Part shown: positions 37,143-39,879 of the stretch, piece after piece | Numbering within the stretch: the stretch's first letter is position 1 | How the letters are laid out: every line of letters starts with the position of its first letter | DNA from: Candidatus Gastranaerophilales bacterium | GTDB lineage: Bacteria > Cyanobacteriota > Vampirovibrionia > Gastranaerophilales > Gastranaerophilaceae | Direction of reading: 5' to 3' | NCBI GenBank assembly: GCA_944326115.1 | Contig: CALVCQ010000001.1 | Span: forward strand, 62,001-126,000 | DNA length: 64,000 nt | Notes under the pieces: generated by a model | Told to the model about the DNA's origin: nothing | Seen by the model: only the letters and a program-made list of their open reading frames with translations | Databases searched by the model: none | Made by a program: the position numbers and the translations under genes

Positions 37143-37170
37143 TTGAATATTTAAATAAATTGTTTATAAT
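37143..37170 (+). promoter_or_regulatory. Sigma-70 type promoter before the structured intergenic RNA
   Basis: TTGAAT (37143-37148) and a perfect TATAAT (37165-37170) are separated by 16 bp. Transcription would start near 37177, exactly at the base of the first predicted stem. Confidence 0.7.
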
Positions 37171-37176
37171 AAAAAT

Positions 37177-37385
37177 ATAGGGAAAAGCCCTAAAGGTGGC
37201 TAGACCTTTAGAGCTTTCTTAACTCCCTATTTAGTGAAGATAAGTGCTATGATTATCAATAAGATAAGCCATAGCGCTTTTTCTGTTATACAGAATTTCA
37301 CTTTTCATCACCACCTTTCAGCCATTGTCCCTTAACTAGCGTGTGCCGAAAGATAGGTAAAACGGGAGCTTACCCCAAAGGTACA
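37177..37385 (+). ncRNA. Candidate structured non-coding RNA
   Basis: No protein frame fits this segment, but it is dense in stems. Stem 1: 37177-37183 with 37224-37230, enclosing CTAAAGGT/ACCTTTAG (37190-37197 with 37204-37211). Stem 2: GTGAA/TTCAC (37234-37238 with 37297-37301), enclosing a 10-bp hairpin (37242-37251 with 37270-37279) and TTCTGT/ACAGAA. Stem 3: GGTAA/TTACC (37356-37360 with 37370-37374). AAAGGTGG (37192-37199) can instead pair with CCACCTTT (37311-37318), excluding stem 1. Length and closing pairing recall 6S RNA, but I cannot assign a class. Confidence 0.5.
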
Positions 37386-37389
37386 AACG

Positions 37390-39879
37390 TTATTTAACCA
37401 CTATATTTACAAGTCTGCCCGGGACAACAATAGTTTTTATTATTTGTTTGCCCTCTATATTTTCTTTAATCTTTTCACTTTGCAGGGCAGCTTTTTCCAG
37501 TTCCTCTTTTGAAGATTCGGAATCAACTTCTATTTTATCTTTCACTTTGCCGTTGATTTGTACAACAAGCGTGATAGCAGAAGTTTTTGCAAGCTTTTCA
37601 TCATACTCCGGCCATTGAGTTTCGTGTATAGATTCTTGTCCGCCCATAGCATGATAGAGTTCTTCTGTCAGATGAACAGTAGTAGGCGCCATAAGCTTAA
37701 GCAATGTTACCATAGCAAAACTGAATACATTTTTATCTTCATCGGAAAATTCCGATTTTTTGCCTGCATAGTCATATATAGCATTCACAAATTCACGGTA
37801 CTTGGATATAACAGTGTTGAACTGAAACTCATTTGAAATATCCTGTGTAATACCTTTAATAGCGATATGAGTGGTTCTGACAAGGTCGTTGTTTTCCTTG
37901 GAAAGTGAAGAAACATCCTCGGGCAGTTTGTAATCCAGAATAAGATTTTGCTGCTGCGAAGCATACAATCTCCACACTCTGTTTAAAAATTTATAACAGC
38001 CTTCCACACCTGCATCAGACCAGTCAAAATCTCTTGCCGGAGGTGAATCAGAAAGGATAAACAATCTTGCTGTATCAGCCCCGTAGTTTTCAAATATTTC
38101 ATCAGGGTCAACCGTATTGCCTTTTGATTTTGACATTTTTGAACCGTCTTTTAGCACCATACCCTGTGTCAAAAGGTTTTTAAAAGGCTCGTCAAAATCC
38201 AGAAGCCCTAAATCCTTTAAAGCTTTGGTAAAGAACCTTGAATACAAAAGGTGTAAAATAGCATGTTCAATACCGCCTACGTACTGGTCAACAGGCAGCC
38301 ATTTGTTTACAAGTTCTTTGCTGAACGGTGCATTTGCATTTTTTGCATCTGCATATCTCAAATAATACCAGCTTGAACAAATAAATGTGTCCATGGTATC
38401 TGTTTCTCTTGTAGCTTTTCCGCCGCAAACAGGACATGTTGTTTCAAGGAAAGTTTTTGAAGTAAGAATAGGAGATTTTCCTACTACTTTAAAATCAACA
38501 TCCTCAGGCAGTTTTACAGGCAGCTGGTCTTCCGGTACCGGCTGCGGGCCGCATTTTTCACAATAAACAACAGGAATCGGAGCACCCCAGTACCTCTGAC
38601 GGGAAATCAACCAGTCACGGAGCCTGTATTGAGTTTTAAACTCGCCGTATCCGCCATCCACGGCCTTTTGTGTAATAGCTTTTTTAGCTTTTTCGTTTTC
38701 CATGCCATTAAATTCTTCTGAATTTACAAGCACGCCGGGTTCTGTATAAGCAGCGTCTTTGCAGTCAGACGGATTTTCCGGATTTTGGATTACCACCTTC
38801 ATCGGCAGATTATATTTTTTTGCAAAATCAAAATCTCTTTCATCGTGCGTAGGTACAGCCATTACAGCGCCTGTTCCGTATTCAACCAGTGCATAATCCG
38901 CAGTCCAGAGCGGGAACTCTTCGCCGTTAAAAGGATTTATAGCATGGGTGCCCAACGGAACACCTGTTTTTACACGTTCTGTTGAAAGTCTTTCGATTTC
39001 CGTCATTTTGCGTGCATTGGCACGGTAAGACTCAACAGCCTCTTTTTGTTCAGGCGTTGTAAGCTTTTCTATATCCTTGTATTCAGGTGCGACAACAAGG
39101 TATGTGATACCGTAAACAGTATCAGGTCTTGTTGTATAAACAGGGATTTCCAGCCCTTCTATTTCTTTTACTTTAAATTTTAAGATTGCGCCCTGAGATT
39201 TGCCAATCCAGTTTCTCTGCATTGTTTTTACACTGTCGGGCCAGCCTTCGAGCTTATCAATATCCTGCAACAGCTGTTCTGCGTAATCTGTAATTTTCAA
39301 AAACCATTGTGATAAATATTTTTTCTCAACAACGCTGTCGCATCTCCAGCATTTGCCGTCAATTACCTGCTCGTTTGCAAGAACCGTAGCGCATTTATCA
39401 CACCAGTTTACGGCTGCTTCTTTTTTATAGGCAAGACCTTTTTTATAAAGCTGTAAAAACAGCCACTGAGTCCATTTATAATAATCAGGCTTGCAGGTGG
39501 CAACTTCTCTGTCCCAGTCATACATAAGACCGAGTTTTTTAAGCTGCATTTTCATATAAGAAATATTTTCATCAGTCCATTTTTCGGGATTTTCATTGTG
39601 TTGAATTGCTGCATTTTCTGCAGGAAGCCCGAAACTATCCCATCCAATCGGATGCAGTACATTAAAACCATGCATTTTCTTAAAACGGGCAATTACATCC
39701 GTAATTGTGTAGTTTCTGACATGTCCCATATGCAGTTTGCCTGACGGGTACGGAAACATCGACAGTGCATAGTATTTGGGTCTGTCTGAATCATCGTAAG
39801 TTTTTCCAAACTTGTTGTCTTCCCAAACTTTTTGCCACTCTTTTTCAATTTCCTGAGGAAAATATTGTTCTTTTATCAC
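37390..39879 (-). CDS. leuS: Leucyl-tRNA synthetase
   Basis: A class I synthetase of 829 residues when started at the GTG at 39879, which follows AGGTGGAG; the frame reaches 39918 without a better site. The HIGH motif appears as HMGH (50-53, in YPSGKLHMGHVRNY) and KMSKS near residue 580 (DGSKMSKSKGN). The editing domain (TTRPDTVYGITYLVVAPEYK) and zinc-type CEKC/CPVC cysteines are present, and a C-terminal VQINGKVKDKIEV domain follows. It charges tRNA-Leu in the cytoplasm. It appears monocistronic. Confidence 0.97.
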   Translation of the reverse strand: MIKEQYFPQEIEKEWQKVWEDNKFGKTYDDSDRPKYYALSMFPYPSGKLHMGHVRNYTITDVIARFKKMHGFNVLHPIGWDSFGLPAENAAIQHNENPEKWTDENISYMKMQLKKLGLMYDWDREVATCKPDYYKWTQWLFLQLYKKGLAYKKEAAVNWCDKCATVLANEQVIDGKCWRCDSVVEKKYLSQWFLKITDYAEQLLQDIDKLEGWPDSVKTMQRNWIGKSQGAILKFKVKEIEGLEIPVYTTRPDTVYGITYLVVAPEYKDIEKLTTPEQKEAVESYRANARKMTEIERLSTERVKTGVPLGTHAINPFNGEEFPLWTADYALVEYGTGAVMAVPTHDERDFDFAKKYNLPMKVVIQNPENPSDCKDAAYTEPGVLVNSEEFNGMENEKAKKAITQKAVDGGYGEFKTQYRLRDWLISRQRYWGAPIPVVYCEKCGPQPVPEDQLPVKLPEDVDFKVVGKSPILTSKTFLETTCPVCGGKATRETDTMDTFICSSWYYLRYADAKNANAPFSKELVNKWLPVDQYVGGIEHAILHLLYSRFFTKALKDLGLLDFDEPFKNLLTQGMVLKDGSKMSKSKGNTVDPDEIFENYGADTARLFILSDSPPARDFDWSDAGVEGCYKFLNRVWRLYASQQQNLILDYKLPEDVSSLSKENNDLVRTTHIAIKGITQDISNEFQFNTVISKYREFVNAIYDYAGKKSEFSDEDKNVFSFAMVTLLKLMAPTTVHLTEELYHAMGGQESIHETQWPEYDEKLAKTSAITLVVQINGKVKDKIEVDSESSKEELEKAALQSEKIKENIEGKQIIKTIVVPGRLVNIVVK

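Follow-up and report, generated by a model that had tools for sequence, protein, structure and literature searches.

The locus at positions 37143–37385 of the window, the 64,000-nt stretch of Candidatus Gastranaerophilales DNA analysed here, is very probably a chromosomal type I toxin-antitoxin module. Its plus-strand RNA most likely serves as antisense antitoxin against a very small membrane-toxin gene read from the other strand, and the module itself is most likely one of many copies of an undescribed type I toxin-antitoxin family of gut Melainabacteria (Table 1). We further judge it reasonably probable that, in this undescribed Gastranaerophilales family, the toxin codons double as the antitoxin terminator, RNA pairing constrains amino acids (paired changes FCIT/FSIT/FTIS/FAIS), and a conserved RNA scaffold takes up unrelated peptides in exchange for one another, including at the same leuS site and among the copies of a single tandem array. 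The locus would then be a clear case of two opposite-strand genes sharing one DNA stretch, in which the codons of a membrane helix also have to fold into an antisense terminator, and the shared stretch would serve as an example on which RNA-driven protein evolution and toxin swapping can be tested directly.

Table 1. Features of the putative toxin-antitoxin module, in window coordinates.
Feature	Position	Strand	Remarks
Antisense (antitoxin) RNA promoter, TTGAAT-16-TATAAT	37143–37170	+	10/12; position conserved in relatives
Predicted antisense (antitoxin) RNA, ~109 nt	37177–37285	+	Start inferred from the -10 element, end from the U tract
Antisense RNA intrinsic terminator	37242–37282	+	Hairpin 37242–37279, T tract 37278–37282; inside toxin codons
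Toxin mRNA terminator	37172–37218	-	Stem 37218–37183 plus T-rich tail
Post-stop GGGAGTT	37221–37227	-	Predicted partner AGCTCCC (37370–37364) near the mRNA 5' end; MFE fold of L001
Putative toxin ORF, 24 aa, MKFCITEKALWLILLIIIALIFTK	37227–37301	-	GTG at 37301 to TAG at 37227; homologous ORFs in relatives
Hairpin I at ORF start, TTCTGT/ACAGAA	37281–37295	-	Compensatory changes
Toxin ORF Shine-Dalgarno site, AAAGGTGG	37311–37318	-	
5' UTR hairpin, predicted to mask the Shine-Dalgarno site	37311–37360	-	Unpaired probability of the site in the window copy 0.01
Candidate weak toxin mRNA promoter, in leuS 3' end	37400–37427	-	9/12; window scan at chance level

The original prediction described a near-consensus promoter leading into a free-standing, structured plus-strand RNA of about 200 nt that reached 37385 and contained no protein frame. 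The promoter is present at a position conserved in relatives; in a raw scan, such sites occur at chance level (6 found vs 5.7 expected). The plus strand folds strongly (37177–37400, −62.1 kcal/mol, z −4.44), with none of 200 shuffles being as good, and the complementary segments AAAGGTGG at 37192–37199 and CCACCTTT at 37311–37318 as well as the local hairpin at 37190–37211 were all located. There is good support for a structured RNA that is read from the plus strand and has a promoter of its own. The absence of a protein frame applies to the plus strand only, as the minus strand carries a 24-codon ORF with a Shine-Dalgarno site. The extent of the RNA also required revision: the hairpin and T tract of the antisense terminator delimit an RNA that most likely ends near 37285, and, instead of being free-standing, this RNA is read here as the antisense partner of the minus-strand mini-gene. 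It would overlap the 3' UTR and most (approximately 3/4) of the toxin ORF, leaving the Shine-Dalgarno site uncovered. At 37143–37385, all Rfam families stay below their gathering scores, and nothing relevant was found at the locus at either gathering or permissive thresholds. In agreement with the original prediction, neither covariance models nor ARAGORN gave a match to tmRNA, RNase P RNA, or SRP RNA at the locus.

The minus-strand Shine-Dalgarno site and the short hydrophobic ORF recur in copies from relatives. The best 15-residue hydropathy of the window peptide is 3.09, and a membrane segment (hydropathy of at least 1.6) is predicted in 151/152 class A and 30/31 other-class peptides. A Shine-Dalgarno site accompanies 143/152 class A and 30/31 other-class ORFs, which start with GTG, ATG, or TTG; these conservation figures arise partly by construction, as the ORF finder required open frames with at least 45% hydrophobic residues. 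The other-class peptides include the types MTKEIIKTIITVIITVLKIIIIWL, MKRQIIKSALVVLDALLKVLLIFI, and MIEQIKYKIKCALVIIGHILLIFASLL, and one probable false ORF of 32 aa (L199) is counted among their ORFs. Across 2623 pairs of similar segments, the differences at codon positions 1, 2, and 3 number 9252, 4034, and 11727, and the differing codons comprise 8981 synonymous and 10526 nonsynonymous ones, indicating that purifying selection on the peptide is visible, though not strong. Known type I toxin families include Hok, Fst, Ldr, TisB, and Ibs, and the peptides matched no curated profile of such families. Searches against Pfam, NCBIfam, and PHROGs gave no hit above cut-off, with weak similarities only, such as those to TatA and DUF6366.

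Within the limits of sequence evidence, the relatives indicate that the antisense RNA exists. Among the 141 of 147 class A elements with enough flanking DNA, a sigma-70-type antisense promoter of at least 10/12 is present in 97%, vs 3% of dinucleotide shuffles and 7% for the opposite strand of that DNA, and one of at least 11/12 is present in 80%, vs 0.1% of shuffles. Of the 141 elements examined, 140 have a site of at least 9/12, and in 139 of these its distance to the toxin stop codon is 46–67 nt. The promoters on the toxin side are weaker yet enriched in the family (36% vs 5%). An antisense-facing intrinsic terminator is located inside the ORF in 143/152 class A and 29/31 other-class elements. 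After synonymous recoding at genome usage, 0.5 (class A) and 1.3 (others) such terminators remain; it is codon choice that creates the antisense terminator. The window ORF folds better than its synonymous versions (z −5.0 and −5.2).

Both hairpins within the ORF covary strongly. Among the 129 unique ORF segments, one pair of hairpin I is A-T in 80, T-A in 30, and G-C in 9, and the next pair is G-C in 99 and C-G in 16, while pairs of hairpin II include G-C 87 / A-T 36 and T-A 61 / G-C 45; the hairpin counts leave out 11 peptides lacking the EKAL-like anchor and one truncated copy. The Watson-Crick fraction, computed on selected variable pairs, is 0.832 in hairpin I and 0.859 in hairpin II, vs 0.686 (sd 0.016) and 0.625 (sd 0.013), respectively, under synonymous-codon shuffles among sequences. 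Alignment A4 comprises 117 of the 129 segments, without the 12 that lack the FxIT start. It contains 209 doubly changed cells vs 62.6 when shuffled and gives a covariation score of 0.243 vs 0.091 (0 of 500 shuffles), with no slid version coming near; these cells count sequences rather than events, and the copies are related. The original prediction would have been abandoned had relatives drifted without compensation, and compensatory changes were found instead. The toxin strand has G-U in just 6 of the 1290 cells of the lower stem of hairpin II (null 50.8), and A-C, which equals G-U in the antisense RNA, is kept more often, in 86 of 1290 (null 125.2). This wobble asymmetry suggests that selection on the stem acts on the antisense RNA. 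Hairpin I displays no such asymmetry (16 and 18).

To the toxin mRNA, folding of 132 elements (11 others were dropped for a missing 5' or 3' motif and the rest for missing flank) assigns a hidden Shine-Dalgarno site, of which 5.5 of 8 nt pair with the 5' UTR and 0.08 of 8 with the 3' UTR. The mean unpaired probability of the site is 0.30 over these predicted transcripts, and the value for the window copy is given in Table 1. In 170 of the 183 elements, the Shine-Dalgarno site was paired with its own anti-Shine-Dalgarno segment and with those of other elements; the own pairing is slightly better (−10.28 vs −9.40 kcal/mol), which lends weak support to the modelled 5' UTR hairpin. Pairing between the 5' and 3' ends of the mRNA gave no signal when own and cross duplexes were compared (−10.72 vs −10.81). 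As the end pairing is no better within than between elements, this step of the proposed mechanism is without covariation support.

The element belongs to a widespread set. A DNA search yielded matches in 30/99 related genomes, including the window's own, often with several in each. A sequence-only profile of class A yielded 166 matches, 149 of them distinct, with a short hydrophobic ORF in 147 and none in 2. One of the models (R2) lacks base pairs and therefore scores sequence only. The wider locus set consists of 183 short ORFs of shared anatomy, 152 of class A and 31 of other classes, in addition to 7 matches without an acceptable ORF. In L002, the start codon is lost (GTG to GTA), suggesting that the locus may be decaying in this lineage. 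L145 appears frameshifted, L191 has lost the start and part of the ORF, L039 has lost its 5' part, L043 continues in a longer frame, L014 is cut by the contig end, and one L042 copy was rejected by the ORF filter. The class A covariance model detected the element in 153/382 genomes of the class, 145 of which belong to the window's own family (Gastranaerophilaceae), and the other-class model in 160/382, a set that overlaps the former. Tandem copies approximately 300 bp apart are found in L034 (four) and in L110, L149, and L213 (three each), and the arrays of L091 and L111 mix peptide classes. Two exact patterns had 0 copies in viral contigs, and tblastn with the 24-aa peptide found none in plasmids and phages, a search in which so short a query has little power. 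The named records are mostly Candidatus Gastranaerophilales, Melainabacteria, or labelled only bacterium, with three labelled otherwise. These are the assemblies labelled Heliobacteriaceae, Fusobacterium, and Brachyspira (L160, L188, and L190), in which the matches are possibly mis-binned or mislabelled Melainabacteria DNA.

The site downstream of leuS was compared within the genus, where the leuS end was recovered in 21/23 genomes and the downstream DNA was judged by eye. Ten of the 21 carry an intact or decayed module and 11 carry none, and the modules at this site are of class A, of an MKRQ-like class, or decayed copies. At one empty site, the C-terminus of LeuS is identical to that of the window and the downstream small gene is present. 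Such patchiness, swapping, and decay are as expected of type I modules. A decayed hybrid downstream of leuS in G012 (L232 / L039) combines the remains of an MKRQ-class ORF with a class A type 3' end, which suggests recombination between modules. Downstream of the module in the window lies a 51-aa ORF on the minus strand (36960–36805), whose homologue, of the MYSPQFMRFLVGRDADDF type, is likewise found after leuS in several members of the genus that lack the module.

Among known type I systems, AapA/IsoA is a multi-copy family, and Ldr occurs in tandem repeats. Fst/RNA II and Ldr resemble the present module in their convergent transcripts and small membrane peptide, whereas the peptides here have no Pfam match. 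According to PMC6733600, a hallmark of type I loci is a primary toxin transcript that is untranslatable because its Shine-Dalgarno site is hidden, and membrane-associated type I toxins are described in PMC8309996 as generally hydrophobic, with a putative helix and fewer than 60 residues. The locus has an ORF for a hydrophobic peptide of fewer than 60 aa with a putative membrane helix; judged by sequence alone, it also has a gene for an antisense RNA that overlaps the toxin mRNA and is bounded by a promoter and a terminator of its own, and it is predicted to give a toxin mRNA with a hidden Shine-Dalgarno site. In PMC4147584, the antisense RNA of TxpA/RatA (Bacillus subtilis) likewise lies on the opposite strand and overlaps the 3' part of the mRNA of a small toxin (~75 nt) rather than the ribosome binding site; the toxin there has 59 aa and is unrelated to the 24-aa peptide, and RatA is described without coding-region overlap, whereas the antisense RNA here would cover about 3/4 of the ORF and end inside it. 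The same paper gives BsrG/SR4 (Bacillus subtilis) a 3'-overlapping antisense RNA (~120 nt of overlap) and a Shine-Dalgarno site within a stem; we found no sequence relation, and the antisense terminator here is embedded in toxin codons. It also gives Fst one shared bidirectional terminator and an overlap that stops short of the coding region, unlike the present arrangement. Strong mRNA folding hides the Shine-Dalgarno site in AapA/IsoA (Helicobacter pylori) as well, but, in PMC6733600, the full-length mRNA does so by a long-distance 5'-3' interaction, whereas a 5' UTR hairpin is predicted here, and the peptides differ. Unlike in these named systems, the terminator at which the predicted antitoxin ends is built into the codons of the toxin itself, an arrangement for which no description was found in the indexed open-access PMC literature. 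Titles and abstract openings in open-access PMC likewise gave nothing relevant on type I modules in Melainabacteria, Gastranaerophilales, or cyanobacteria, the terms toxin-antitoxin and Gastranaerophilales co-occurring only in work not on such modules.

Computation establishes the conserved ORF, its Shine-Dalgarno site, the antisense promoter and terminator, the covariation, and where the module is present or absent after leuS. We infer a mechanism in which both strands are transcribed and a toxic peptide acting at the membrane is repressed through an RNA duplex. The minus-strand mRNA would encode the 24-residue hydrophobic, probably membrane-inserted peptide, with its Shine-Dalgarno site hidden in the 5' UTR hairpin and its 5' end paired just after the stop codon. 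The antisense RNA, about 109 nt long, would start from the strong promoter that lies downstream of the toxin terminator and stop at the terminator written in the toxin codons; it may pair with the 3' UTR and the greater part of the ORF. The most likely outcome of such pairing would be cleavage by RNase III, a block of translation, or both, by analogy with TxpA/RatA and BsrG/SR4.

Several observations speak against the toxin-antitoxin reading. The window copy has only a weak toxin promoter, at chance level; no known toxin family matches; the nearest relative, L002, is without a start codon; and the modelled antisense RNA stops short of the Shine-Dalgarno site. The putative toxin peptides, which match no toxin family, could also be the product of a non-toxic small membrane protein gene under cis-antisense RNA regulation, with no toxin-antitoxin pair involved. 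We regard this as unlikely, because addiction-type modules, more than a house-keeping peptide, would be expected to occur in several copies per genome and in tandem arrays, to house unrelated peptide classes in a shared RNA scaffold, and to be patchily distributed and often decayed, all of which is seen here.

The original prediction favoured a free-standing plus-strand RNA acting as a riboswitch-like switch through alternative pairings of AAAGGTGG, which we consider very improbable. The strong fold and the real promoter agree with such an RNA, but the synonymous-codon nulls and the conserved 24-codon frame reveal a coding gene opposite. The downstream partner CCACCTTT is the complement of the toxin ORF's Shine-Dalgarno site and lies beyond the predicted end of the antisense RNA, and on the minus strand the AAAGGTGG/CCACCTTT pairing joins that site to a piece of the toxin terminator. 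The long-range pairing is not conserved either: an 8-nt Shine-Dalgarno complement follows the stop codon in 7/170 elements and is missing in 163, and CCACCTTT is absent in the closest relative, L002 (95% identical). The terminator loop of L002 is in reverse orientation relative to the window copy, and a comparison of L218 / L002 with window 37190–37211 shows opposite orientations of this loop in the two closest copies, as if a palindrome had flipped. The 6S RNA of the organism, another option raised by the original prediction, would suit a long, hairpin-rich RNA with its own promoter, but it can be set aside almost entirely, since the RF00013 covariance model has no match at the locus and the element has several copies in some genomes and none in many. 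The best 6S match of the genome lies elsewhere, outside the window at G000:C1:189671–189852; with 33.1 bits, it is below the Rfam cut-off, and it is plausibly a divergent 6S RNA of the lineage.
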